Virus record (IMG/VR): IMGVR_UViG_3300029981_000050
Coordinates: 1-28,033 of that record
Length of the DNA stretch: 28,033 nt
Source: a virus
Reading direction: 5' to 3' (one strand)
Below are positions 1 to 28,033 of this stretch, in pieces; within the stretch, counting starts at the first letter, position 1; every line of letters starts with the position of its first letter. Under the pieces are notes generated by a model. The model was not told the origin of the DNA and ran no database searches. It was given only the letters and a program-made list of their open reading frames with translations. Made by a program: the position numbers and the translations under genes.

Positions 1-366
1 AAAAGAGCAGATGTAATTAAATGGAATAAAGAATTGATAGATATAAGTAAGAGAAAAAAAAGAGCAATGAATACTGCGGCAGTAATGGCCACTGAATACT
101 TAAGAAAACCTAATATTGCTAAGCGTATTGATGAGATACTAGAAGAGAGAGCTTTTAATGATAATGCGGTTAAGAGAGAACACTTTAAATTGGTGGCTAA
201 TTCCAAAGATGAAGTTAAGATAAGAGCTATTGATTCTTATTATAAGTTGAAAGGAAAATTTGTTGAAAAGATTGACCATACTACTTTAGGAGAAAAGATT
301 GAAGGTATTAATTATATAATCCCAAATGGCAACGATAAACATAACACCAACATTAAGACAGCATGA
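1..366 (+). CDS. Terminase small subunit (TerS), 5' truncated by window edge
   Basis: The frame is open from the first base of the window to TGA at 364-366, so about 121 residues are visible and the true start lies upstream. The visible part is helical and basic, with a segment of the type 'KPNIAKRIDEILEER' followed by 'SKDEVKIRAIDSYYKLKGKF', a pattern typical of small terminases in which an N-terminal DNA-binding region precedes oligomerisation helices. Its 3' end overlaps the large terminase by 41 nt, the classic terS-terL order. In the family, TerS recognises packaging sites and regulates TerL; this role is inferred from position and pattern. The TGA stop is one of only two in the window. 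An internal TTG at 34 could be read as a start, but the coding pattern continues above it. Confidence 0.75.
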   Translation, partial: KRADVIKWNKELIDISKRKKRAMNTAAVMATEYLRKPNIAKRIDEILEERAFNDNAVKREHFKLVANSKDEVKIRAIDSYYKLKGKFVEKIDHTTLGEKIEGINYIIPNGNDKHNTNIKTA

Positions 367-1828
367 AGTCTACCAAGCTCTTCAAAGTAAAGACGAAATA
401 TTTTATGGTGGAGCGGCTGGCGGAGGAAAGAGTTGGCTTATATGTGAGAGTAGATTAATAAACTGCTACCTATACCCAGGTTATCGTTCATTTATTGGTA
501 GAGAAGAGTTAACCAGATTAATGCAGTCAACCTATCTTACTTGGATGAAAGTTTGTAAGTATCATAAAATACCATCAACTGATTGGCATTTGAATGGCCA
601 ATATCATTATATACAGTTTAACAATGGAAGCCGGATAGATTTACTAGATTTAAAGTTTCTTCCATCTGATCCATTATATGAAAGATTTGGTTCGTTAGAG
701 TTCTGCGATGGTGCTATTGATGAAGCTGGGGAAATAAACTTCTTAGCTTATGATGTATTAAATTCTAGAATTGGTCGTCATATGGTTGATATAGTAAGGC
801 CTACACTACTTTGCGGTGGCAATCCTAAGAAGAATTGGACTTATAGATTGTTTTATAAGCCATGGAAACTTGGGACTTTATTACCGGGTCAAGCCTTTAT
901 TCAAGCAAAGTATTCCGATAATCCTTTTATATCAGAGTCATATGGTAAACAACTAGATAAGCTTAAGGATGGAGTTATGAGGTCTAGACTTAAGGATGGT
1001 AATTGGGAGTATGAAGACGATAATAATTCTATGACTAGTTTTGAAGCAATAAATAGTTTATTCAGTAATACCATTAAACCATCGTCAGAAAAGTTCTTAA
1101 TAGTTGATGCGGCAAGATATGGAGGAGACTTAATTGTTTTTAGTTTCTGGTCAGGTCTTAATTGGTATAAAGTAGTTTACAAGACTAAGCAGGGATTAGA
1201 TAAAACTGCTGATGACATTATAGAGTTTGCCAAGCAAGAGAAGATACCATATGAGAATATATTGATTGATGAAGATGGTGTTGGTGGTGGCTTAGTTGAT
1301 GATAAAAGGTTAAGAGGTGTTAAAGGTTTCATGGGTAATCGTTCTCCATTAGTTAATCCTAATCCAGCTAACCCAGATCAACTTAAACAAAACTTTGGTA
1401 ATTTACGCGCTCAGTGTTGCTATAAGATGTCTGATATAATTAATGAACATAAAGCAAGTGTTAGTTTCACTGACGAGAAAGCCAAAGAATTATTGGCATC
1501 TGATATTGAACAATATAAAAAGAAGAACCCTGACTCCGATAAAAAGCTTTATATTATTGATAAGAAAGAAATGAAAAAAGAGTTAGGCAGAAGTCCTGAT
1601 TTTGGAGATTGTTTCATGATGAGAATGTGGTTTATATTAAAGGAGTCAGCTGATAAGCAAGACGAGTATCAACAGAAACCTTATGAGCCAAGTAGTGACT
1701 ATGAAGATGCAGGACAAATAAATAACAATTTATACCCAGAAAATAACAATCCGTTTATAAATAATAACGAGTCGGTGGTCCAAGATAATTATAAGCAAGC
1801 CCCATGGAATGGGTTTGATGAAGAATAA
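326..1828 (+). CDS. Terminase large subunit (TerL), packaging ATPase/nuclease
   Basis: 500 residues, the usual TerL length. The ATPase domain is N-terminal: Walker A 'GGAAGGGKS' at residues 28-36 (K35), Walker B 'FCDGAIDEAGE' at 126-136 (D132, E133), and a coupling-type 'CGGNPKKN' at 163-170. The C-terminal RNase-H-like nuclease has acidic ligands in 'FLIVDAARYGGD' (D261), 'ILIDEDGVGGG' (D315-D317) and 'PDFGDCFMMR' (D425, D428). It should power DNA translocation into the prohead through the portal and cut concatemers. The Asn/Glu-rich tail after residue 450 looks disordered. The start overlaps terS by 41 nt and the stop is 5 nt before the portal start, which indicates translational coupling. 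Function is secure from motifs; the packaging type (headful or cos) cannot be told. Confidence 0.95.
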   Translation: MATINITPTLRQHEVYQALQSKDEIFYGGAAGGGKSWLICESRLINCYLYPGYRSFIGREELTRLMQSTYLTWMKVCKYHKIPSTDWHLNGQYHYIQFNNGSRIDLLDLKFLPSDPLYERFGSLEFCDGAIDEAGEINFLAYDVLNSRIGRHMVDIVRPTLLCGGNPKKNWTYRLFYKPWKLGTLLPGQAFIQAKYSDNPFISESYGKQLDKLKDGVMRSRLKDGNWEYEDDNNSMTSFEAINSLFSNTIKPSSEKFLIVDAARYGGDLIVFSFWSGLNWYKVVYKTKQGLDKTADDIIEFAKQEKIPYENILIDEDGVGGGLVDDKRLRGVKGFMGNRSPLVNPNPANPDQLKQNFGNLRAQCCYKMSDIINEHKASVSFTDEKAKELLASDIEQYKKKNPDSDKKLYIIDKKEMKKELGRSPDFGDCFMMRMWFILKESADKQDEYQQKPYEPSSDYEDAGQINNNLYPENNNPFINNNESVVQDNYKQAPWNGFDEE

Positions 1829-1833
1829 ATAAT

Positions 1834-3846
1834 ATGCCAGTATCAAAACGATTAGGAGAAAATTTATTAAAGACAGCGCTTATACAGCTTAAGGTCTCAA
1901 CAGACTATAAGGCTAAGCGTTTTGTTAAGATTAATGAGGCTATCGCTTTGCTTGATGGCGATACTAAAAAGAAACTAAGAACTCAGTTTAATGTTCCATT
2001 GCCAGTGCTTCAAGGTTTGTTTGAAACTTTCTTAGGAGACTTAGACGACCCAGTTACTATTAAGATTAAAAATAACGCTGGTAAGAACTTCCAGGCTATT
2101 AAAGGTATTAACGAAGCTATTAACATTGCTAAGAAGTCATTAAAAAATAATGCTCTATGGGATTATAAAGACCGTGCTAGTCGTAAGTTTTGTGGTGCTA
2201 CTGGACGAGCTGTCTTAAAGTCTTGGTCAGTTGCTAACCCATATCAAAACAATTTGGAATGTGTTGACCCTCAGGAGTTCCATTGTCAACCTAAAGGTGG
2301 TGGCATTTTAGAGCGCCATTTGTTCTGTGGAGAAGAGGGCATCTTTAAAACCAAAGATGAATTAACTAAAGGCGCAGAGGACGATTACTACATTAAAGAG
2401 AATGTGGACGAACTGTTAACAATCATTGGCGACAATGAATACCAACAGAAATTAAGTGAGGCCAATGAAGCTAGTATGACTCGCTTTAAGTCTTTAGGGT
2501 TAGACCCTGACTCTAATAATTATGTTGGAGAAGTTACTGTTAACCTTTGCGAGTGGAATTTAACTAAATACGGTAAGAGATACCATTTACTATTTGACCC
2601 TTGGAATAAGATTTTATTAAAAGCTGATGAGTTGAAAGACTTAGAACCATCTGGCTTATACCCTTATACTTCTTACGCTACTCACGAAGATATTAAGGTT
2701 TTCTGGTCAACTTCAATGTTGGCTGACATCTTAATGCCTATTGCTAAGTCCATCATTGATTTGTTTAATCAAGACTTAACCAATAGACAGAAGAGAATGA
2801 TGAACGCCAAGTTGTATGATAAGGACATGATCAAGAACGTGGCCAAGCTCGATGAAGCTCAAAGCCGTCCTGATTGTTTAGTCCCTGTTGATACATTTGG
2901 CGGAGCAAGACGTTTGAGTGAGGCTACATATGCCTTTCAAACCCCTGAAATGTCAGGCACAGTCGATTTAATCTCTTGGCTTGATGAATTTACAGGAAAA
3001 GCTACAGGTATCTACCAGAACGCTCCTAGCAAGGGGGGAAAGAAGAATAATAACATCGTCTACGCTGAAATTCAGCAAATGACTAAGAGAGTAGATTATC
3101 GCTCCCACTCCTATCAAGAATGTTGGGGCCAAGTCGCTCTTCGCTTCATTTCTGGACTTAAAGAAAACTTAACTGATAAAGAAGCTTTAGATATGTTGGG
3201 TCCTGAACTTGGTTTCGACTTTGTTAAACAATTAAAAGAAGTTCGGATTGACAAAGATGATATTGAAATTATATCAACTAAAGAACAAGCCCAGGAAGAT
3301 GCTTTACGTAAAGCTCAAAAGGAAAAGGCGTTAAGTTTATTAGGACAAGACCCTGGAATTAATCCTGACTGGAAAAGACGACATTTACTATCGGACATTG
3401 GAGGTTTTGAACAAGACGAAATTGATGATGCTTTAGATATTCGAGGTCAAGGTAAGGAGCAAGACCAACTTAGTTCTGCAGATGATGCTATTAAAGATTT
3501 GATTAAAGGAAAAGAGCCAGAAGTTTGTTGGCACGCTACTACGATATTTTTAAGAAAGATTATGGACTTTGCCGTTGGTCATAAACTGTCACTCGATGAT
3601 AAATTCCCTAAATTTATTCAATTTGCTGAAAAGCACAACGAAATAGTAATGGAGAATATGATGCAACTCGCACTGAGAACCAAAGCTTATCAACCACCAG
3701 CTCAGCCAGGAGCCACCCCTCCTAACCAACCAGGTGCTCCTACCGGAGCCCCAGGAGCACCTGATGGCGGAGGATTTGCCCAAAAGACACCCGAGCCAAC
3801 AATGGGAGGTGGCCAACCCACTCCCGTAGAAGTTTCACAACGATAA
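1834..3846 (+). CDS. Portal protein
   Basis: 670 residues immediately after terL, the expected portal position, and in the size range of podovirus (P22-like) portals. Portals form the dodecameric ring at the capsid vertex that docks TerL and later the tail. Residues around 45-130 ('LRTQFNVPLPVLQGLFETFLGDLDDPV', shown here in part as 'LPVLQGLFETFLGDLDDP') and the central region fit portal clip/wing sequences, and a long helical C-terminal half follows. The last ~50 residues are Pro/Gly-rich ('PGAPTGAPGAPDGGG') and probably flexible, like the disordered C-terminal extensions of some long portals. There is no strict signature motif, so the call rests on order, length and general pattern. Start context is 'aataatATG'. 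Confidence 0.85.
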   Translation: MPVSKRLGENLLKTALIQLKVSTDYKAKRFVKINEAIALLDGDTKKKLRTQFNVPLPVLQGLFETFLGDLDDPVTIKIKNNAGKNFQAIKGINEAINIAKKSLKNNALWDYKDRASRKFCGATGRAVLKSWSVANPYQNNLECVDPQEFHCQPKGGGILERHLFCGEEGIFKTKDELTKGAEDDYYIKENVDELLTIIGDNEYQQKLSEANEASMTRFKSLGLDPDSNNYVGEVTVNLCEWNLTKYGKRYHLLFDPWNKILLKADELKDLEPSGLYPYTSYATHEDIKVFWSTSMLADILMPIAKSIIDLFNQDLTNRQKRMMNAKLYDKDMIKNVAKLDEAQSRPDCLVPVDTFGGARRLSEATYAFQTPEMSGTVDLISWLDEFTGKATGIYQNAPSKGGKKNNNIVYAEIQQMTKRVDYRSHSYQECWGQVALRFISGLKENLTDKEALDMLGPELGFDFVKQLKEVRIDKDDIEIISTKEQAQEDALRKAQKEKALSLLGQDPGINPDWKRRHLLSDIGGFEQDEIDDALDIRGQGKEQDQLSSADDAIKDLIKGKEPEVCWHATTIFLRKIMDFAVGHKLSLDDKFPKFIQFAEKHNEIVMENMMQLALRTKAYQPPAQPGATPPNQPGAPTGAPGAPDGGGFAQKTPEPTMGGGQPTPVEVSQR

Positions 3847-3850
3847 CTTT

Positions 3851-4189
3851 ATGATGGAAGTCAAGAAAAAACTTAATACACTTCGAAAGCGAGAGGACTG
3901 GGATTCAAGTGCGTTGGCCGTATTCAATGAATGGGACAAGCAACTTGATGAGCTCGAACTAGAAAAAAACTATTTAGAACTTCCTCAATCAATTGCGATC
4001 GCAAATCAATTGGTCGATAAGTTACAAAACATTCACGAGGAATTGCTTACTAATCGAACAATGTCAGTAGACCAAAGAGAAAGTTTGTTTAACTTAAAAG
4101 ATTTAACAGAAATGTTATTGTCACATTATTCTTTAGAAGAAAATAATAAAAAAATCTCTTCCATTGAGAAAGAGATAGAAGCTAATTAA
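3851..4189 (+). CDS. Small helical head-region protein of unknown function
   Basis: 112 residues, strongly charged and predicted helical (many Lys/Glu/Leu heptad-like positions, for example 'QLDELELEKNYLEL'). It lies 4 nt after the portal stop and 6 nt before the next gene, so it is co-translated with head genes. An ATGATG at 3851 gives two possible start codons one codon apart. I do not recognise a family. The placement between portal and scaffold suggests a head assembly or minor structural role, but nothing in the sequence proves it. Confidence 0.75.
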   Translation: MMEVKKKLNTLRKREDWDSSALAVFNEWDKQLDELELEKNYLELPQSIAIANQLVDKLQNIHEELLTNRTMSVDQRESLFNLKDLTEMLLSHYSLEENNKKISSIEKEIEAN

Positions 4190-4195
4190 AATTAT

Positions 4196-4456
4196 ATGAT
4201 TAAGCCAATTAAAAAACCAAACGCTGGTGTTGCTAAAATGGGTTCTAAAGGAGCCGTTCCAACCAAAGCAAAAGAAATGGTAAAGCAAGTTACAGGTGGT
4301 AAGAGAGTTATGCGCGGTATGAAAGCTCCAATGACTAAAAATGGCGTTAAACCAAACATTCCTATTATGGATAGCTCTGGCCCAGATGACCGCACAGGTT
4401 CAATGACCGGTGCTCCATCTCCAGCAGAAAGAGCTAAGTTAAAGTTTAAAGATTAA
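4196..4456 (+). CDS. Small basic Gly/Lys/Met-rich protein, unknown function
   Basis: 86 residues with a strong positive charge, rich in Lys, Gly, Pro and Met, and low in predicted structure ('KMGSKGAVPTKAKEMVKQ', 'GGKRVMRGMKAPMTKNG'). A basic disordered protein in the head region could bind DNA or a head surface, but no family is recognised. The spacing (6 nt after the previous stop; start in 'aattatATG') supports a real gene. Codon use matches its neighbours. Confidence 0.65.
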   Translation: MIKPIKKPNAGVAKMGSKGAVPTKAKEMVKQVTGGKRVMRGMKAPMTKNGVKPNIPIMDSSGPDDRTGSMTGAPSPAERAKLKFKD

Positions 4457-4468
4457 TTTATAAACTAA

Positions 4469-4500
4469 TTACAACTAATAGTTACAACTAATAGTTACAA
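4469..4500 (+). repeat. 13-bp tandem repeat, about 2.5 copies
   Basis: The unit 'ttacaactaatag' occurs at 4469-4481 and 4482-4494 and again in part at 4495-4500, ending four bases before the ATG at 4505. It fills most of the short gap between two head genes. It may be slippage or a regulatory repeat. Confidence 0.85.
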
Positions 4501-4504
4501 AAGT

Positions 4505-4816
4505 ATGTCCGTAAAAGTATTTCACAAAGTAGCCGTTCCAACTCACGGCATGGTAAGAGAATTTAGCGAAGAGTTACATGGTAAAGATTATAAGGAAATT
4601 GCTAAGAGTTATGTAGCAAACTATCCTCATAATATTGCATCTGTTGAGGGTTTAGATATTAAACCAGCTAAGTTAGATGCTACTGGAAAAGAATTGTCAG
4701 CTAGAGATTTATTAAAGGCAAAGGCTGAGTCTCTAGGTATTCCATTCGCAGCGAATATTTCTACTGCTAATTTAACCGCTTTAGTTGAAGCTAAAGAGGC
4801 CGAAGAAGCTAAGTAG
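4505..4816 (+). CDS. Small head-region protein with HeH/SAP-like C-terminal helix-turn-helix
   Basis: 103 residues. The N-terminal half is of unknown type ('VFHKVAVPTHGMVREFSEEL'). The C-terminal ~35 residues ('ARDLLKAKAESLGIPFAANI' then 'STANLTALVEAKEAEEAK') match the pattern 'L..KA..LGI......T...L...IE' of HeH/LEM/SAP-like minidomains, which often sit at the C-terminus of small phage head or fibre proteins. The domain is thought to mediate DNA or protein contacts. Position before the scaffold supports a minor virion or head-completion role. The start is in A-rich sequence with no Shine-Dalgarno. Domain call by eye only. Confidence 0.65.
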   Translation: MSVKVFHKVAVPTHGMVREFSEELHGKDYKEIAKSYVANYPHNIASVEGLDIKPAKLDATGKELSARDLLKAKAESLGIPFAANISTANLTALVEAKEAEEAK

Positions 4817-4937
4817 TTTTAGATATTAGTTTGGCGTTTCCACTCGCCTGTCGCAAGACGAAACAAGGATTTGAGGGCGTTTACCTCATTGTTAATAAAT
4901 AAACTGCGCTTCACACTGCGCATTAAAAAGGAATTAT
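4817..4937 (+). other. Hairpin-rich 121-nt noncoding leader before scaffold/capsid genes
   Basis: No convincing ORF. Four short potential hairpins follow one another: GGCG/CGCC near 4832-4847, GTC-GCAA-GAC (a GNRA-type tetraloop) near 4850-4859, TGAGG/CCTCA (4872-4876 with 4884-4888) and TGCGC/GCGCA (4905-4909 with 4918-4922). The stretch is more GC-rich than its surroundings. It then gives way to 'aaaaaggaattatATG', one of the few starts here with a Shine-Dalgarno-like AAGGA. It is likely a 5' leader or processing region controlling the scaffold and capsid genes. Confidence 0.45.
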
Positions 4938-5858
4938 ATGGGTAAAGAATTAGATGAGATGGAAAAAGATGCCTTAGAGTTAGGTATAACTACTGAGGAT
5001 GACGAAGAAGAGTCCGAAGAGGAAGAGGAATCCGAGGAGGAATCCGATGAAGAAGAATCTCAATTCGAGGACGATGAGGAAGAAGAGGAGGAAGAGGAAT
5101 CCGAGGAGGAGGAAGATTCCAAATCTAAAAAACCAAAGGGAAGTATTTACAAGGAATTTAACCAAATCCGTAAAGAAAATCGACAATTCCAAAAAGAAAA
5201 AGAGGAATGGGAAGCGGAAAAGGCTGGGCTACTTGAAAAGTCATCTAAATTTGATGCCTTAGAGAATGGCAAAGTCGAGGAAGAGAAAATTAGAGAAGCT
5301 GCTAAAGAGTTAGCTGGCGAAGATGCTTCGGAAGAAACATTAATCGCCACTGAAAAGCAAATCAGAGCTCTATCAAAGATTTTCTCTAAACCTGCTACCG
5401 CTGCTAACGAACAAGAAATCGAGTCTATTAAAGAAAAACTTGCCGTCACTGAGGATGAAAAGTTATTCCAAACAGACTGGAAAGAGTTTGAAAGCACCAC
5501 CCTCCGCAGTGAGTTTAAAGGAGCGAGCAGGGAACAAATCGAACAAGCCCAAAAGGCTATGGATGATTTGGCCCACGCACCTCAATTCGCTGATAAGGAA
5601 TTTGATTATGTCTACTTCAAAAACAAAGCTATCTTTCAAGAAATCTTAAAGTCACGACCATCTAGAACTTTTGAGTCTAGGGATAATTACTTAGAAGATA
5701 GGGAAGAAAAACCTAACTTAGAAGAAAAATATAAGGGCCGTCACGCTAAAGATATTCCTATCCGTGATTTAGAAAAGATGGATAGAGAAATGGACGAACA
5801 AGCTCGTCAAGAAGAAGAATCTGATGGATGGAAAATTCAAAATCCAAGTAGAACTTAA
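4938..5858 (+). CDS. Scaffolding-like protein, highly acidic
   Basis: 306 residues directly upstream of the capsid gene, the usual scaffold position. Residues ~20-60 are almost only Glu, Asp and Ser. A charged coiled-coil region follows ('EFNQIRKENRQFQKEKEEWE' covers part), then a helical C-terminal half with a basic patch ('RSEFKGASREQIEQAQKAMD'). This acidic N-terminus plus helical C-terminus fits scaffolds, which fill the prohead and bind coat subunits by a C-terminal helix. AAGGA lies five bases before the ATG, a better ribosome site than most genes here have. Homology cannot be tested by eye; the call is by position and composition. An acidic DNA-mimic or internal protein would be the alternative. 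Confidence 0.7.
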   Translation: MGKELDEMEKDALELGITTEDDEEESEEEEESEEESDEEESQFEDDEEEEEEEESEEEEDSKSKKPKGSIYKEFNQIRKENRQFQKEKEEWEAEKAGLLEKSSKFDALENGKVEEEKIREAAKELAGEDASEETLIATEKQIRALSKIFSKPATAANEQEIESIKEKLAVTEDEKLFQTDWKEFESTTLRSEFKGASREQIEQAQKAMDDLAHAPQFADKEFDYVYFKNKAIFQEILKSRPSRTFESRDNYLEDREEKPNLEEKYKGRHAKDIPIRDLEKMDREMDEQARQEEESDGWKIQNPSRT

Positions 5859-5885
5859 TTTTGGTATTAATTAAATAATACCCTG

Positions 5886-5907
5886 TCAACTAACTAAGTT
5901 TAGTTGA
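5886..5907 (+). other. Hairpin in the capsid-gene leader
   Basis: An 8-bp perfect stem (5886-5893 'TCAACTAA' with 5900-5907 'TTAGTTGA') encloses a six-base loop. It can be extended by a G-T and a T-A pair. There is no U-tract, so it is not a standard terminator. It ends 15 nt before the presumed ATC start and could stabilise the capsid mRNA or influence initiation. Confidence 0.5.
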
Positions 5908-5922
5908 TACAAACCCAAACAT

Positions 5923-7299
5923 ATCGCAAACACATATTCGTTACAACAAGTATGGGAACGAAAGTTCGAAGTTTCCCATTACAAAAAGCCATTATTTAGA
6001 GCTTTTTCAGTTGAAAAATTCACTCCAGGTTTAGAAATGGGTGCAACTTTCAACCGTCAATTCGCTTCTGATTTAGCGGTTAATTCTATGGGTGCCAATG
6101 GTTCCTATAGTGTTCAATCTTTCACTAACAGCAACGAGTCCGGTGTTGTTAATATCAAAGATGAAGCATCCTACCAAATTGTAGAATGGCAAAAAATGCA
6201 AGACCACTTAAAGAGTCAAACTAAGTATGCTGAAAAGGCTGCTAACGCTCTTTGGTTACAGGTTGATGCAGAAGCTCTATTCGCAATGCAACAGGGTGCT
6301 GCTAGTTATATTGATGATGCTGTTTTAAACCCAGCAGGTGGTGTAGCTGGTAAGCCAATCGCTTTAGGTATTAACAATGTTATGCCTATCTTTACTACTG
6401 CTATTCAAATCTTCCAGTTAGCTAATGTAGTTTATGATCCAAATAAGAGTTTAAAGAGTGATGTTAAGTTAGAAACTATCTCTGATGCTTTATGCGCAGC
6501 GATTACTCCTCAACTTTACACAACTTTACTTCAATATATTGGTGGGAAAACTACTGTTTTAGGAGATACTATTTCCCGCAATGGTCATGCTGGTTTATTC
6601 ATGGGACATAACCTATTCACAGGTAACACTTTACCTTGGGAGGGTGTATTAAATGTTGGTGCTACAAACCCATCAGATGGCGATACTATTACTTTATTAA
6701 GTGGTGTTTCCGTTAAAGGAGTTTCTCAGGCTTTAACATTTACTTTCAAATCCACTCTAGGAGCTACTGCAGGTAATGTTAAAATCGGAACTGCTATTGC
6801 TGACACGGTTGCTAATTTAGTAGCTGCTTTAAATGCTCCTTACACAACTATTGCTGAAACTGCTACTACTGGTTTTGCTCCATTTGTTAAGGCTTCATTA
6901 ACTACAGCTCAAATCAGACTATTAAGAAACATCTATGCTGTTCAAACTGCTAGTGCTTCTTTAGGTGCCGCTTCTAACGCTGCTGGAACTTATGTTGATT
7001 TGTTCGTTAAAGGACAAGGAAACATCCCAGTCGCTAATGTAGCCGCTTCTAATGGTGCTGCTTGGGGTTATCAATGTCAGCATTTACTTTTCGCTACTTC
7101 TCAATCCGTATCTTTATTGATGCAGAAAGAAGTTCACTTATATGAAAACCCAGTATCAGGACAAGTCGCTCATGACTTTGTTTTCTGGGATTTGTATGGT
7201 GTTAAAGTATTCACTGACCAATCCTATCAAATCATTGATGTTAAGATTGACAGCTCTTCTTATGGTGCTGCAGGCTCATCCCCAATGGTATCTTTCTAA
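5923..7299 (+). CDS. Major capsid protein, apparent ATC start codon
   Basis: The first ATG in frame is at 6037, but the frame is open and protein-like for 38 codons above it, beginning 'ATC GCA AAC ACA TAT'. Residues encoded there ('ANTYSLQQVWERKFEVSHY', then 'KKPLFRAFSVEKFTPG') look like a capsid N-terminal arm and run straight into 'FNRQFASDLAVNSMG'. No ATG, GTG, TTG or CTG exists between the in-frame TGA (5905-5907) and 6037. From ATC the protein has 458 residues. The fold appears HK97/P22-like: N-arm, helical P-domain region, then an inserted beta domain (about residues 249-388, containing 'LTFTFKSTLGATAGNVKIG'), then a C-terminal strand region. It forms the icosahedral shell and follows the scaffold gene, as expected. 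Gene identity is strong; the start codon is unresolved. Confidence 0.85.
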   Translation: MANTYSLQQVWERKFEVSHYKKPLFRAFSVEKFTPGLEMGATFNRQFASDLAVNSMGANGSYSVQSFTNSNESGVVNIKDEASYQIVEWQKMQDHLKSQTKYAEKAANALWLQVDAEALFAMQQGAASYIDDAVLNPAGGVAGKPIALGINNVMPIFTTAIQIFQLANVVYDPNKSLKSDVKLETISDALCAAITPQLYTTLLQYIGGKTTVLGDTISRNGHAGLFMGHNLFTGNTLPWEGVLNVGATNPSDGDTITLLSGVSVKGVSQALTFTFKSTLGATAGNVKIGTAIADTVANLVAALNAPYTTIAETATTGFAPFVKASLTTAQIRLLRNIYAVQTASASLGAASNAAGTYVDLFVKGQGNIPVANVAASNGAAWGYQCQHLLFATSQSVSLLMQKEVHLYENPVSGQVAHDFVFWDLYGVKVFTDQSYQIIDVKIDSSSYGAAGSSPMVSF

Positions 7300-8402: not shown

Positions 8403-9335
8403 GTGTCACAATTACAACCAAGAATTCAATATCCTTTAGTTTATCAAATATTCCCTGATGACCCAGCGACTTATTATATTCGCGCGATCATAAGACTTTC
8501 TAACAGTGGCCAAGTTTGGCGGACTGTTGATTTAGTGAACTCTGGCGGAAATAGATATACAGGCCAGTATTTGACCCCAGGAGACGATACTAATGGCGTT
8601 CCGATAGATATTACCTATTATGTTTATACAGACGCACAGCACACCACTCTGTCGCAACAGTATGATACCAAGAATGTGGAGCATCTAGTCTTTACGCTTG
8701 CTAGTCCATCTATCGGTTTTTCTGGTGGCGGAAGTGACGGTCTTACTCCTAAAATGATTGCTGAAATAGTCCGGGAAGAACTTAAGGGGTATAAACTTCC
8801 TAAAGGTTTCGGTATGGAAGATATGGAATTAGGCTTAAACAAGAATATGAGCCCATATTTTCAAACATTTCACGACTCTTTAATGGGAATTTATGATAAG
8901 AACGATATTTTAGAGGGAGGTTTACATAAATTAACCGAACTTCATGGCGAAAACGGTAAAATGTTATCAAGCGTTAAAGAAGAATTATCTGTTTTATTTT
9001 CTAACGTTATTAAACAGTTAAAAGAAGAATTATCTGGCCACTTCGAATTGTTAATGGAAGAAAATGGTAACAAACTAGGAAACTCAATAATTGACAGTCA
9101 GTCAAGATTAGAGAAGTTTAGCGGCGAAGTCGGAGATAACTTTAAAAAGGTTGCCTCAGTCTTGGAAGAATTAACTAATAACACTAAAGGCATTGATGGA
9201 AAGATTAATCAATACAATTACCGAAAGATTCAAGGATTAAAAGAAAGTTTAACAAAGATTTTTGATGACACTGAAAAGGATTATCAAAATGAAGAAGATT
9301 ATTTAAAACAAGCAAAAAAGTTATTAGGAAACTAA
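8403..9335 (+). CDS. Tail-fibre-like protein with long coiled coil (GTG start)
   Basis: 310 residues starting at GTG, the only plausible start after the previous stop at 8375-8377. Residues 1-105 look like a beta-sandwich head ('YQIFPDDPATYYIRAIIRLS', 'DITYYVYTDAQHTTLSQQYD'). A short Gly linker ('GFSGGGSDG') leads to a long amphipathic helical region from about 115 to 308 with heptad-like Leu/Ile spacing ('LTELHGENGKMLSSVKEELS', 'LFSNVIKQLKEELSGHFELL'). This head-plus-coiled-coil design fits a trimeric fibre or whisker protein. Unlike its neighbours it has no signal peptide. Ten nt separate it from the next gene. No family name can be given from sequence alone. Confidence 0.75.
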   Translation: MSQLQPRIQYPLVYQIFPDDPATYYIRAIIRLSNSGQVWRTVDLVNSGGNRYTGQYLTPGDDTNGVPIDITYYVYTDAQHTTLSQQYDTKNVEHLVFTLASPSIGFSGGGSDGLTPKMIAEIVREELKGYKLPKGFGMEDMELGLNKNMSPYFQTFHDSLMGIYDKNDILEGGLHKLTELHGENGKMLSSVKEELSVLFSNVIKQLKEELSGHFELLMEENGNKLGNSIIDSQSRLEKFSGEVGDNFKKVASVLEELTNNTKGIDGKINQYNYRKIQGLKESLTKIFDDTEKDYQNEEDYLKQAKKLLGN

Positions 9336-13281: not shown

Positions 13282-14445
13282 ATGTTAGACAAAGAGCAAA
13301 TCGTCTATAAAATAAAGCATTTTTTACCTTATATATTTGGTTCTTTTAAAGGTTCTGGCTACAGACTGCTCGAAGATGATGATAGAGACTTTCAATTAGG
13401 TAGTTTTTTTGGATTAGGTGCTTATTCTCCAAAGTCTAGCCGTGTTTTGCTTCCAACTTTAAGCGTTAAAGACCAAAATCATTTTAATACCTGTGTTTTT
13501 AATTCTGCAACTGTATGTAAAGAACCAGACGAAGGCGTTATCTTATCGGTTCGATCTTTAGTTTCGCAATCTTGGCGTTCTAACTATATTCAAGGAAATG
13601 GAAACTCTAGTCTGAGATATGCCCAACAAGTTTTAAAGGACTGGGGGGAGATGGAAGAAAAAGATTTACCGGATGGAAATTACTCTGTATCTAATGATTT
13701 CAATGGTTATGTAAATACTTCTTTAGACCAGAATAAAGCATCTGGTCATAAAATTAGCTCTTTCTGGTCAGTAAGCACTAAAGACCAGATTCTACAACTT
13801 CTTGATCAAGGAAGAAGATGTCATGTGGCTATTCCTTGGTATTCTGGTTATAACCAAGGCGGTGGTTTCTCCGCTCCTTGGATTATTACTAAAGCTTTAG
13901 GTTATTTTGTAGGTGGTCACGCTCTAGCAATAATCGGTTATGACTTAAATTATCAAGGACATAAAGTTTTTATTATTCAAAATTCATATAGTGCTCAGTG
14001 GGGAGATGCTGGAAAGTTCTATGTAGAAATGGACTTCTTAGTTCGTGAAATGAATCAACCAGGATACGGATGTTATTGTAATTTAGATTTAGGAACAGAC
14101 ACCGCCTCGTTTATCAATAAGTTTGATAGCAAGAACGTTAAGAAGAAAAACAACCCATCAATCTACTTAATCCAGTCTGGTGTTAAAAAAGTTTACCCAG
14201 ATTGGCCAACTTATTTAGCATTCGATGGTAATAATAAAGGTTTTACTACTTTATCGGATACTGATGCTTTAGCTTTAGATAAAATTCAAGCTGGGGATAA
14301 TATGGACATTACTAAATCTGTTTACTGGTCAATGATTGAAGAATTAAAACTGGCTGATGATAAAGATGGAGCTTTAATTTCTGCCATTACTCAGATGCAA
14401 TATAATAAGAGACTTGGTTTAGCTTTAGATACTAATTTAAGATAA
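13282..14445 (+). CDS. Papain-like (C1-type) cysteine peptidase
   Basis: 387 residues. The active site is complete: Q65 six residues before C71 in 'DQNHFNTCVFNSA' matches the papain oxyanion Gln and nucleophile Cys spacing; H213 is in 'GGHALAIIGYD'; N234 is in 'IIQNSYSAQWGDAGKFYV', the equivalent of the papain 'NSWG' block. A C-terminal ~120-residue extension ('SIYLIQSGVKKVYPDWPTYL') may be a binding or virion-attachment domain. No signal peptide is present, so it is probably carried in the virion or acts inside the cell. Possible substrates are host surface proteins, capsid proteins during maturation, or cell-wall peptides; none can be chosen from sequence. It sits between lysis-type and tail genes. 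Confidence 0.85.
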   Translation: MLDKEQIVYKIKHFLPYIFGSFKGSGYRLLEDDDRDFQLGSFFGLGAYSPKSSRVLLPTLSVKDQNHFNTCVFNSATVCKEPDEGVILSVRSLVSQSWRSNYIQGNGNSSLRYAQQVLKDWGEMEEKDLPDGNYSVSNDFNGYVNTSLDQNKASGHKISSFWSVSTKDQILQLLDQGRRCHVAIPWYSGYNQGGGFSAPWIITKALGYFVGGHALAIIGYDLNYQGHKVFIIQNSYSAQWGDAGKFYVEMDFLVREMNQPGYGCYCNLDLGTDTASFINKFDSKNVKKKNNPSIYLIQSGVKKVYPDWPTYLAFDGNNKGFTTLSDTDALALDKIQAGDNMDITKSVYWSMIEELKLADDKDGALISAITQMQYNKRLGLALDTNLR

Positions 14446-23165: not shown

Positions 23166-24500
23166 ATGATTATTAACATCCCAAAAGAAAAAGACAATAA
23201 AAGAAAGTTTGTCCTCGTCACGAAAGATTTTAGTGGACTAGGTTTCGCATTGGACGAACAAGAAAACGGAAGCGAAGTTATTATTGCCTATGGTGGTCAA
23301 GAATTTAAAGACGACAAGGAAGAAAAAGCCTATTTAATGACTGGCGAGGGAATGATTGAAAAAATACCTTTAGAGGAATTGATGGCTAGTAAAAATAAAT
23401 ACAAAGAACACTATTTTGTGTTTGACGGAAATCATAATGTTGACTCTGGCGAGAAGCTTAGAAAACTAGGATTTAAAGTTTGGGGTGGTTCTAAATTTAC
23501 CGATGACCTAGAAAATGACCGAGAGTTTGGAATGGAGTTTGCTGAGTCTTGCGGACTACATAGCCCAGAGCAGGAAGAATTTAGCGGTGCTGATGAGGGA
23601 ATATCATTTTTAGAGGAACACGAGGAAGATGCTTATGTTTTTAAACCAAACGGATCGTCAGATAATTCTAAGACCTATGTTCCAGTTAACGAAGAACCAG
23701 CTAAGGCTAATAAAGAAGTTAGAGATTTTATTCAAGCGTTTCAAAATGATGAATGCACCTCTTCTTATATTCTTCAAAAGATGGTTAAAGGAGTTGAAGT
23801 AAATGTTGAGGCATATTTCATTAAAGGTAATGCGGTATTCGCTCACGCTAACTTTGAAAACAAAAAAGCTTATCAAGAAGAAATGGGCCGAGCAACTGGC
23901 TGTGCCTTTGACGTTGATTTTGAAATACCTTTAGAGTCCGAACTTTATAAGATGACTGTTGGTAAAATGGCTAGTAAGTTAAAGGAAATGAACTATACTG
24001 GATTGGCCGATGCTAATGTTTTAATCGGTGACTTTAATGAGGTTTATTTCTTAGAATTCTGTTTCCGTTGTGGTTATAATGCTATGGTAAATTTCCATAA
24101 AAACCTTTGTAATAAAACAATGATGCAAACTTGCGCTGATATGATTGACGGAATTTCCGATATTAAAGCTAAAAAAGGTTTTGGTGTCACAATTACAATG
24201 TTTACTGATGACTTCTACACTGGACTCCCTATTTATATCCCAGAGAATATTGAGAAAGATGTTTACTTATTTGATGCTTATTGTGAGGGGTATGATTTAA
24301 GAATGGCTGGAACTTCAAATGAAATACTTATTGTTTGTCATCACGGTTATACTATCTCGGAAGCTTTGAGAGAGTGCCAAGAAAAGGCAGAAAAGATTAT
24401 TTTTAAAGACAGATATATGAGACTTGATACTTGGGAGCATAAAACAAGTAAGAGTCCCCAGAGACGATTTGAAGCCATTAGAGCGATGAATATTTTGTAA
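23166..24500 (+). CDS. PurD-like ATP-grasp ligase
   Basis: 444 residues, last gene of the late operon, 8 nt after the ejection-like gene. The ATP-grasp layout resembles glycinamide ribonucleotide synthetase (PurD): an N-domain with 'LGFKVWGGSKFTDDLENDRE', a nucleotide site 'AYVFKPNGSSDNSKTYV' (K160), 'LQKMVKGVEVNVEAYF', 'NKKAYQEEMGRATGCA', and a metal-site stretch 'NEVYFLEFCFRCGYNAM'. In PurD the last is 'EfNaRfGdpE'; here the Asn that binds Mg is Cys299. It is probably an ATP-dependent carboxylate-amine ligase, but not necessarily for purines. Its place among virion genes suggests a modification of a virion protein or a phage peptide. A diverged or inactive enzyme remains possible. Confidence 0.75.
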   Translation: MIINIPKEKDNKRKFVLVTKDFSGLGFALDEQENGSEVIIAYGGQEFKDDKEEKAYLMTGEGMIEKIPLEELMASKNKYKEHYFVFDGNHNVDSGEKLRKLGFKVWGGSKFTDDLENDREFGMEFAESCGLHSPEQEEFSGADEGISFLEEHEEDAYVFKPNGSSDNSKTYVPVNEEPAKANKEVRDFIQAFQNDECTSSYILQKMVKGVEVNVEAYFIKGNAVFAHANFENKKAYQEEMGRATGCAFDVDFEIPLESELYKMTVGKMASKLKEMNYTGLADANVLIGDFNEVYFLEFCFRCGYNAMVNFHKNLCNKTMMQTCADMIDGISDIKAKKGFGVTITMFTDDFYTGLPIYIPENIEKDVYLFDAYCEGYDLRMAGTSNEILIVCHHGYTISEALRECQEKAEKIIFKDRYMRLDTWEHKTSKSPQRRFEAIRAMNIL

Positions 24501-24502
24501 AT

Positions 24503-24531
24503 AAAAAGACTCCTTAATTGGAGTCTTTTTT
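24503..24531. terminator. Bidirectional intrinsic terminator between convergent operons
   Basis: A perfect 11-bp stem (24503-24513 'AAAAAGACTCC' with 24520-24530) surrounds the loop TTAATT. It has a T-run on the right arm and, read on the other strand, a T-run on the left arm. It lies three bases after the ATP-grasp stop and about 170 nt downstream of the leftward HAD gene, so it serves both transcription units. Confidence 0.9.
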
Positions 24532-26482: not shown

Positions 26483-27019
26483 TTAGTGATGACTGTTTAA
26501 TTCTTCTAACTTAATTTTTAAATCTTCTATGATCGCCGTTAAATCTTCTACTGAATAACCTTTATGACTCCAAGCGTCTTTTACTAATTGATTAAACCAT
26601 TCTAAGCCATAATCTCTTATAAGGTTCTCGGCGTAAACATCTAATTTACCAGAATAATATTTATTACATTGGCTATCCTGAGGCTTTAAATTTCTAGGGT
26701 CAAAGTCAAGTTTATCGTGTTTGAAGTGTCCGGCTTGTAATTCTTTCCAATGCTTAACCGCTCCGCAGGTGTAGCATTCGTTGTAGCCGTCTAAATTAGC
26801 CCCTGTGCGTCTTACAATCTCACTCATTAACTTCCACGCCTTTTTATGTAAAGTCTTGCGTAGCGACTCTTTAAAGCCTTTAGTGGACTCGTGTCTTTCT
26901 TTCTTAAGTCGTGCCTTTTCTTCTTTCTGTTCCTTGGTTCTAGCCTTTAGACAAGAATAACAGAAATTGCTATTGGCATATTTAGGTTTTAGTCCGCAAG
27001 TTTTACAAAGTTTAGTCAT
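26483..27019 (-). CDS. ninG: NinG-like (Rap) recombination protein
   Basis: 178 residues from ATG 27019, which overlaps the stop of the upstream gene as ATGA; a GTG at 27034 would be five codons longer and lacks this coupling. An N-terminal zinc knuckle (C5, C8, C20, C23 in 'LCKTCG' and 'NFCYSCL') and a Lys/Glu-rich helix lead to an HNH-type core: 'ECYTCGAVKHWKELQAGHF', 'DFDPRNLKPQDSQCNKYYSG'. This is the lambda NinG/Rap pattern; Rap is a structure-specific nuclease acting on recombination intermediates. A C-terminal helix 'LTAIIEDLKIKLEEL' follows. Family call is strong; the gene symbol is by similarity of pattern. Confidence 0.85.
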   Translation of the reverse strand: MTKLCKTCGLKPKYANSNFCYSCLKARTKEQKEEKARLKKERHESTKGFKESLRKTLHKKAWKLMSEIVRRTGANLDGYNECYTCGAVKHWKELQAGHFKHDKLDFDPRNLKPQDSQCNKYYSGKLDVYAENLIRDYGLEWFNQLVKDAWSHKGYSVEDLTAIIEDLKIKLEELNSHH

Positions 27020-27390
27020 AGTTTTATGGTCCACTCTAGTGGCATTACTAAATTTTTAGGTAATTCAAATCTATTAAATAAACAAATCATATGGTTGTGG
27101 GTATGTCCACAAATTCCAGTCCCCACAGCAGTTAATAGAAAAGTTTTGTCTTGATTATCTTCACAACACTTAATAAGTTTTTTAATGTGTTCTAGTAACT
27201 CTTTATTTTCTATCTTATTCATTTGTTTATCCAGTGTAGGAAAAGCATAACATTGACCAGTTAATCCCTCCCCAACTCCCCATTCAGCTCCAAACTGTTC
27301 ATAGGCTTGTTTCGCCGCTCCCCCTAGATGATTCCCTAGTAAATTACTACCAAATACGAAAATTTGATTATCTTTAAGTTCTGTAATCAT
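27016..27390 (-). CDS. Macro-like phage protein (ADP-ribose-type fold)
   Basis: 124 residues. 'NQIFVFGSNLLGNHLGGAAK' and 'GVGEGLTGQCYAFPTLDKQ' match a small phage/bacterial family of the type 'FVFGSN.aG.hG.GAA...GL.GqsyaiPT', related to macro domains. 'TFLLTAVGTGICGHT' would be the glycine-rich loop near the ligand. Macro-type domains bind or hydrolyse ADP-ribose derivatives, so a role in host NAD/ADP-ribose defence systems is possible, but the substrate is not known. TAAtATG separates it by one base from the repeat-protein gene and ATGA overlap joins it to ninG, so the three are one operon. TGA stop. Confidence 0.7.
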   Translation of the reverse strand: MITELKDNQIFVFGSNLLGNHLGGAAKQAYEQFGAEWGVGEGLTGQCYAFPTLDKQMNKIENKELLEHIKKLIKCCEDNQDKTFLLTAVGTGICGHTHNHMICLFNRFELPKNLVMPLEWTIKL

Positions 27391-27391
27391 A

Positions 27392-28033
27392 TTATTCGTT
27401 GCTATCGTCAGTTTCTACAAACTTCTTATCAACTACTTTATACCACTGGTCAGCTTTAATTTTTTTATCATCAACTTTAGCAGATAAAACACATAAAGGT
27501 TTAGCATCTTCAAAATTATATCCCTCTTTCCATTCAGCAATAACAATCCAAGAACCTAGTGATGCTTTAGCTTTAGCTTTTCTTCCTATAGAACAAGCAA
27601 TCGCATCGCTCGTTGAAGTAGCGGAGTGAGCACCATAGCCAGAAGTAGCGGAGTTAGCACGATTGCCAGAAGTAGCGGAGTGAGCATATTCGCCAGAAGT
27701 AGCGGAGTGAGCATCATTGCCAGAAGTAGCGGAGTGAGCATCATTGCCAGAAGTAGCGGAGTGAGCACCATGGCCAGAAGTAGCGGAGTGAGCACCATGG
27801 CCAGAAGTAGCGGAGTTAGCATCATTGCCAGAAGTAGCGGAGTGAGCACCATGGCCAGAAGTAGCGGAGTTAGCATCATTGCCAGAAGTAGCGGAGTGAG
27901 CATCATTGCCAGAAGTAGCGGAGTGAGCACCATAGCCAGAAGTAGCGGAGTGAGCACCATAGCCAGAAGTAGCGGAGTGAGCACCATGGCCAGAAGTAGC
28001 GGAGTGAGCACCATGGCCAGAAGTAGCGGAGTT
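27392..28033 (-). CDS. Solenoid-repeat protein, 5' truncated by window edge
   Basis: The minus frame is open from the right edge to TAA at 27392-27394, 213 codons, so the N-terminus is missing. The first ~140 residues are 15 full copies of a nine-residue repeat, framework S-A-T-S-G-x-x-A-[H/N], with x-x mostly HG, YG or ND. A beta-solenoid is likely. After the array comes a conserved tail: 'DAIACSIGRKAKAKASLGSW', 'IVIAEWKEGYNFED', 'KKIKADQWYKVVDKKFVE'. I recognise this array-plus-tail layout from phage and bacterial proteins with 'STAASSGDY'-type repeats, whose N-terminal part is outside this window. Function unknown. It is the first visible gene of the leftward operon. Confidence 0.75.
   Translation of the reverse strand, partial: NSATSGHGAHSATSGHGAHSATSGYGAHSATSGYGAHSATSGNDAHSATSGNDANSATSGHGAHSATSGNDANSATSGHGAHSATSGHGAHSATSGNDAHSATSGNDAHSATSGEYAHSATSGNRANSATSGYGAHSATSTSDAIACSIGRKAKAKASLGSWIVIAEWKEGYNFEDAKPLCVLSAKVDDKKIKADQWYKVVDKKFVETDDSNE
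27616..28033. repeat. 27-nt tandem repeat array, at least 15 units
   Basis: Units of the form 'agaagtagcggag' plus 14 more bases follow without gaps to the window end. The unit is exactly nine codons, and the array is coding on the minus strand. Framework bases do not vary; differences fall in three codons. The contig probably ends here because the repeat could not be assembled. Confidence 0.95.

Follow-up and report, generated by a model that had tools for sequence, protein, structure and literature searches.

A phage major capsid gene that probably starts at an AUC codon

Introduction

Where does translation of a capsid gene begin when the first canonical start in its frame lies 38 codons inside what seems to be the coding region? 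The question is raised by the window, a virus record of 28,033 bases whose whole length was analysed here, in which the listed open reading frame (ORF) 6037–7299 extends in frame upstream to TGA 5905–5907. An earlier note on this DNA proposed that the gene starts at an ATC codon, at 5923, which would be either a true non-AUG start or the product of a single-base sequence error or mutation. AUC is counted among the bacterial start triplets, and triplets without a 3′ G are regarded as non-canonical and subject to IF3 discrimination (PMC4611024). Because IF3 discriminates against AUC in model bacteria, as the same source describes, an AUC start is odd for a protein needed in bulk.

Results

The capsid frame offers few possible starts

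The capsid frame is free of stops from 5908, and the stretch between the TGA and the first ATG contains no ATG, GTG, TTG or CTG, just as the earlier note had described it. The only near-cognates there, one base away from ATG, are ATC 5923, AAG 5962 and AAG 5986, and no in-frame start is available further upstream, between the TGA and 5923. Positions 5923–6036 make up 38 codons. Gene callers restricted to ATG, GTG and TTG would truncate conserved phage proteins of this sort, here by 38 of 458 residues.

Table 1. Features of the capsid start region, in window coordinates
Feature	Position	Strand	Evidence or remark
ATC, putative initiation codon of the major capsid gene	5923..5925	+	aligned GTG in three relatives, ATG in five; same base in 3300028864
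Major capsid protein gene (label supported through relatives), 458 codons + stop	5923..7299	+	PHROG 267 matches of relatives; follows portal-like and scaffold-like ORFs
Codons 2–38, N-terminus lost if a gene caller starts at 6037	5926..6036	+	pN/pS; residues 2–7 identical in four phages
First in-frame ATG, internal codon M39, rejected as start	6037..6039	+	context score; relatives extend upstream
Stop of upstream acidic (scaffold-like) ORF 4938–5858, 64 nt before ATC	5856..5858	+	ORF list
Leader hairpin 1, 7 pairs, loop 6	5863..5882	+	same place in L015, one compensated pair
Leader hairpin 2, 8 perfect pairs, loop 6; 10 pairs in predicted fold (5884–5909)	5886..5907	+	same place in L015, two compensated pairs
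A-rich spacer with A−6, A−2, T−1, no Shine-Dalgarno; last 13 nt unpaired in leader fold	5908..5922	+	context and fold

The label "major capsid", which the earlier note had attached to this gene, holds up through its relatives. Six of eight match PHROG 267, "major head protein" (E 2.2e-6 to 6.6e-11), and for this reason we regard the capsid name as supported. The window protein itself has no PHROG or Pfam match, and the L015 and L003 capsid proteins likewise lack a match to PHROG 267. A PDB profile search with the capsid gave a single weak capsid match (E 0.052). Two structure models of the protein were of low confidence (mean pLDDT 44.2 and 47.4), too poor for the predicted fold to be used as capsid evidence. 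The two preceding ORFs would encode a portal-like and then an acidic, scaffold-like protein, names given to ORFs that have no family match of their own.

Homology places the start at 5923

Our comparison set comprised nine distinct capsid sequences, namely that of the window and those of eight relatives. L015 (72% identical) and L002 and L003 (61%) have GTG at the codon aligned with the window ATC, and read GTG GCT AAC ACA/ACT TAT/TAC, that is, (M)ANTYSL. Five outgroup phages, recovered when the portal and an alignment of six capsids served as queries, are 40–43% identical and have ATG at the capsid N-terminus (L036; L037, also L029; L038, also L030; L039; L040). The two outgroup sequences in the six-sequence alignment start in the same column and carry three extra residues after residue 2. 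Alignment with homologous N-termini had been named in the earlier note as a means of deciding the matter, homologues that begin at the residue encoded by 6037 being the outcome that would speak for the downstream ATG. All eight relatives carry residues upstream of the M39 position, align there and begin at the codon aligned with ATC, and homology with these eight distinct sequences thus places the start at 5923. Named phages yielded a single weak match (MW202577; 27% over 48%), whose annotated start is ATG and whose N-terminus is unaligned.

In the capsid tree, a branch with 100/100 support separates the four non-ATG sequences from the others. The capsid start is therefore non-AUG in 4/4 phages of the window clade, and since the three nearest relatives use GTG, we take a non-AUG start to be a feature of the clade. 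To this extent the earlier note, which implied a normal ATG gene altered at a single base, gave an incomplete picture. The ATC itself occurs in 0/8 relatives; the codon is not conserved, which counts against the ATC reading. By a hand count on the tree, ATG>GTG once followed by GTG>ATC (1+2 changes) ties with two origins of GTG plus ATG>ATC (3 changes), and because the two routes tie we do not claim that ATC descends from GTG.

The three GTG relatives also have an in-frame ATG at codon 8 (L015 3001–3030, L002 5001–5030, L003 5001–5030), which could serve as a secondary start. With this ATG present, their GTG start is read from the conservation of residues 2–7. The window has CAA at codon 8, so internal initiation there is not available to the window phage. 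To set the capsid against other genes, we compared where frame matches begin between the window and the three relatives' records. The alignments of 31 non-capsid matches start no more than 5 codons ahead of the first ATG in the relative, whereas those of the three capsid matches start 7–9 codons ahead of it, at the GTG or two codons earlier. These offsets indicate that, in the relatives' records, only the capsid gene demands a non-ATG start.

Codons 2–38 evolve as coding sequence

Against L015, pN and pS are 0.231 and 0.849 in codons 2–38, compared to 0.185 and 0.739 from codon 39 on. The corresponding pN/pS values are 0.275/1.123 and 0.301/0.934 against L002, and 0.235/0.964 and 0.293/0.939 against L003. 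Residues 2–7 (ANTYSL) are identical in the four phages, and five of their six codons vary synonymously in at least one of them. Thus, as judged from sequence comparison, codons 2–38 evolve as coding and are under purifying selection in the four-phage group, and this pattern of evolution argues that they are translated in the phage. Since their evolution is much like that of the later codons, ATG 6037 can be dismissed as the start; beginning there would strip off conserved residues. In the six-sequence alignment, just one of the five sequences besides the window has Met at the position aligned with 6037.

Start context and host

Twenty-five comparison starts (20 on the plus strand, 5 on the minus strand) were picked by hand from an ORF list allowing only ATG, GTG and TTG, and some of them belong to small, unverified ORFs. 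Left out as ambiguous were the ORFs at 34, 20656 and 26483–27034 (listed with GTG) and the repeat ORF 27586–28014. All but one of the picked starts are ATG (24/25), a proportion that cannot reveal other odd starts because of the limit on the list. The exception is the gene at 8403, with GTG, yet both relatives that have this gene (the L015 and L002 records) show ATG near the aligned N-terminus.

The picked starts have T at −1 in 22/25 cases, A at −6 in 20/25 and A at −12 in 19/25. The combination of A−6, A−2 and T−1 is found at 13 of the 25, as against 2.9% of all positions and 14 of 386 ATC triplets, and it is present at the capsid ATC. The context score of this ATC (0.32) exceeds those of 92% of all positions and 94.5% of the 510 other plus-strand ATGs. 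Among the picked starts it is only mid-rank (leave-one-out scores −7.63 to 10.79), which counts against the ATC reading. ATG 6037 scores −8.68, under the leave-one-out scores of all 25. The resemblance between the capsid context and that of the start at 13282, pointed out in the earlier note, is real, the exact hexamer aaacat occurring at that one start alone among the 25. Also counting against the ATC reading, the capsid has C at −3 and so lacks the A−3 reported to be favourable in Bacteroidetes (PMC6847099).

None of 22 sites examined for Shine-Dalgarno pairing, a set that includes the capsid and two misplaced sites (18849, 20764), reaches −4.4 kcal/mol, a level attained at 15.8% of 1000 randomly chosen places. 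Pairing is weak (−3.7 to −4.0 kcal/mol) at 4938, 9346, 12958 and the misplaced 20764. The Bacteroidetes are described as being without Shine-Dalgarno sequences (PMC6847099), and their initiation resembles that of the window, with A-rich leaders and A at −6 and −12. One difference is that that study, which leaves GUG unmentioned, stresses A−3, whereas T−1 is dominant in the window. Of the records matched, ten span 80% or more of the terminase; they comprise phages of Bacteroides, Flavobacterium and Polaribacter together with two faecal records. Cellulophaga phages follow at 78%, and phages of Salmonella and Arthrobacter are among the weaker, partial matches. These matches, together with leaders that lack a strong Shine-Dalgarno, suggest that the host is probably a member of the Bacteroidota. 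Profile searches of genome contigs with the capsid and portal yielded no (prophage) relatives that would indicate a host.

The terminase large subunit (326–1825) resembles those of Bacteroidota phages. In the record of the sister phage, L015, no homologue turned up at E 1e-6, despite ∼70% identity in portal and capsid, which may point to a terminase swap.

The C at 5925 recurs in a second record

An IMG/VR search with the capsid protein retrieved record 3300028864_000011 (36,150 bases), which carries the same ATC. It is identical to the window across 11,374 bases around the capsid gene and indeed up to 27741, the first mismatch (27742) lying inside a 27-base tandem array. On account of its 127-base terminal repeat, this record is probably a circular genome of 36,023 bases. 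A pattern scan in which the third base of the start codon was left free found, besides the window, only this record. The phage is also present in a third dataset, 3300028772, as a contig of 7,223 bases with 100% identity to window positions 1–5181 and to the longer record; this contig ends before 5923 and thus says nothing on base 5925. Given the same C in a second record, a simple sequence error is unlikely. One caveat is that, while the samples behind the two records are likely to be independent, the records may share a site or even reads.

Two hairpins in the capsid leader

Two hairpins occupy most of the gap between the upstream stop and the ATC. The second had been noticed earlier and credited with a possible part in initiation; the fold is real, and it is one of a tandem pair whose first member had been missed. 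The window leader folds better than 200 of 200 dinucleotide shuffles (z −4.77), ranks second among the 21 gene leaders scored, and comes fifth among 875 scan windows (windows folding weaker than −8 kcal/mol were given z = 0 without shuffling). L015 has the same two-hairpin layout (z −4.43), with its start 12–13 nt past the second stem. As MAFFT misaligned the two hairpin leaders, the arms were anchored by hand, a procedure that leans towards structure; compared in this way between these two sequences, which are few for arguing covariation, 12 of the 15 pairs are the same, another three differ in both partners and no pair is lost.

The 65-nt leaders of L002, L003 and the five outgroup phages show no comparable fold (z −0.75 to 1.91). 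The pair is hence present in two of nine capsid leaders rather than across the family, and its absence from the other seven argues against a general role. An Rfam search of the leader returned nothing above the gathering score. Within 5859–5922 there is no terminator-like match, so an intrinsic terminator at the hairpins was rejected, and no sigma-70-like match either. In the window phage, a loose scan for −7 elements of the Bacteroidota type turned up no more than TAATTTTG at −67 and TAAGTTTA at −28, neither of them convincing. The hairpins may stabilise the transcript, bind a protein or help initiation.

Proposed mechanism and alternatives

We put the probability at about 0.72 that ATC 5923–5925 is the real capsid start, at which the ordinary initiator tRNA inserts (formyl)methionine, with context compensating for the weak codon. 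The product would be (M)ANTYSLQQVWER..., and the predicted N-terminal peptides would be ANTYSLQQVWER, with the initiator Met removed, or MANTYSLQQVWER. The AUC would be read by the ordinary fMet initiator tRNA, and U at −1 may pair with A37 of that tRNA, giving three pairs (U−1, A1, U2) despite the C:C mismatch at codon position 3. Pairing of U−1 with A37, beside the anticodon, is reportedly the core of the "extended codon–anticodon" model of Esposito (2003), which is said to derive from the chloroplast petD system. Recognition of the start would proceed through the Shine-Dalgarno-free, A-rich, U(−1) context typical of the window phage, and we propose that the weak codon is tolerated because this context carries recognition. 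No tRNA gene was found in the window or in records G001–G003, so these do not supply a special initiator; a phage-encoded initiator tRNA was rejected on this ground.

Of the possibilities raised in the earlier note, a true non-AUG start is favoured by the N-termini of the eight relatives, by the coding character of codons 2–38 and by the second record, and the single-base error or mutation is disfavoured, since two assembled records share the C. The base could nonetheless be real and the ATC a recent, damaging or near-neutral mutation, with capsid made by residual initiation from an allele that is drifting or on its way out. The restriction of ATC to the window phage fits such a history, as do the poor performance of AUC as a start in model bacteria (PMC4611024) and the Neisseria PAAR gene, where an ATG>ATC start mutation is known in a copy of doubtful function (PMC10210955); decay of codons 2–38 would not be expected so soon. 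Also in its favour, for 61,358 AUG, 5,080 GUG and 2,468 UUG ancestral starts reconstructed in closely related genomes, PMC5622118 gives one change from AUG to AUU and 202 from GUG to AUG and reports none to AUC, although gene callers rarely annotate such starts. Yet two records were assembled with this same allele, and in a group that keeps a non-AUG start throughout the change need not be damaging. We therefore judge a recent mutation to be distinctly unlikely. An artefact, with a true base other than C at 5925, is very improbable: ATC is one base from ATG and both witnesses are assembled sequences, but the two agree at every base up to 27741, and one wrong base would not restore the GTG of the nearest relatives.

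Equally slight, in our view, is the chance that ribosomes enter the capsid frame in some other way, without initiator pairing at the AUC, for instance by reinitiating, or through an unusual event that follows the upstream gene or takes place in the hairpin leader. Two strong hairpins do lie between the upstream stop and the start, but that stop is 64 nt off in a different frame, an in-frame TGA intervenes at 5905, and relatives without such leader folds use GTG or ATG at the same codon. That the protein begins at ATG 6037, without the 38 upstream residues, is scarcely credible. It is the first canonical start in frame, but homology, the coding signal and the context score all speak against it: the alignments of all eight relatives take in the upstream residues, on which purifying selection acts in the four-phage group, and the 6037 score is under that of every picked start.

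Given the start-codon changes recorded in PMC5622118, a GTG conserved among relatives near saturation at synonymous sites (L015 versus L002, pS 0.78–0.96) together with ATC in their sister is unusual. Beyond the AUC start itself, it is reasonable, but unproved, that the window clade favours weak initiation at the capsid. A stronger version, which we consider unlikely, is that the non-AUG capsid start is a selected control point. Initiation would be weak or factor-dependent (at GUG, and here at AUC), the tandem-hairpin leader of the window phage and its sister, just upstream of the ribosome footprint, would help or time it, and capsid synthesis would respond late in infection to initiation-factor levels or to a leader-binding protein.

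Comparison with known non-AUG starts

The infC gene of E. coli, which encodes IF3, starts at AUU, and dsg, the IF3 gene of Myxococcus xanthus, has an AUC start. Like infC, the window capsid gene would have a natural AUH start with a third-position mismatch to the initiator tRNA. In contrast, infC is regulatory and is held in check by its start codon, while the capsid gene is structural, its product is needed in bulk, and it has neither a Shine-Dalgarno nor known IF3 feedback. Being a capsid gene by its relatives, it does not encode IF3 and so, by that measure, is not an autoregulated AUH start of the infC kind. It shares with AUH-start genes a homology-fixed start at a codon other than AUG, GUG or UUG, and the AUH codon is present in more than one assembled record (the window and 3300028864). 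AUC initiation in E. coli is reportedly weak (Hecht 2017).

One precedent is the ribosomal protein L12ae gene of Staphylothermus marinus, for which an ATC start was assigned by alignment (PMC2678158). There, too, relatives point to the ATC, in an essential and presumably well-expressed gene without a valid canonical start; unlike the window capsid it is archaeal, and it forms the subject of a single remark with no test. When the start codon of chloroplast petD was changed to AUU or AUC, initiation was down 10–20% (PMC9845219); this too is AUC initiation in a bacterial-type system, but the petD variants are engineered and chloroplast-borne, whereas the window capsid is natural and from a phage. 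An engineered AUC start of Bacillus rny is likewise used (PMC10303841). The Neisseria PAAR gene shows the same ATG>ATC change and was missed by annotation programs, but in that case insertion of a repeat element produced the change, and the copy is disrupted, unlike the window capsid (PMC10210955). A further comparison is with the GUG-started capsids of L015, L002 and L003, which are the same gene, with the aligned codon, the same following residues and a non-AUG codon read by initiator tRNA; GUG, however, keeps the third-position G and escapes IF3 discrimination, which AUC does not (PMC4611024).

AUC starts are therefore already known, with a precedent in an essential archaeal gene, and a phage major capsid gene that uses one would be new. 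Among the matches listed in the literature on AUC/ATC starts, where start-codon phrases lead mostly to mitochondria and eukaryotes, there was no phage capsid gene starting at AUC. Capsid expression from AUC, as it appears from these comparisons, would mean that the natural gene of an abundant structural protein starts at this codon without a Shine-Dalgarno. It would run counter to the idea that only weak, regulatory genes have AUH starts, and would offer a natural test of start choice by Bacteroidota-type ribosomes.

Other features of the window

Two domains are unexpected beside phage structural genes: a papain-like cysteine protease domain (PF00112) at 13282–14445 and an ATP-grasp domain (PF01071) at 23166–24500. 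Directly behind the final long gene of the plus strand, and ahead of convergent ORFs on the minus strand, 24503–24530 forms a perfect 11-pair hairpin (AAAAAGACTCC...GGAGTCTTTTT) that looks like a terminator for both strands. A 13-base tandem repeat (TTACAACTAATAG, 2.5 copies) at 4469–4500 lies directly upstream of the gene at 4505. At 27615–28032 there are ∼15.5 copies of a 27-base repeat, whose minus-strand open frame consists of repeats of a nine-residue unit. The window contig ends inside this array, which differs between the window and 3300028864.
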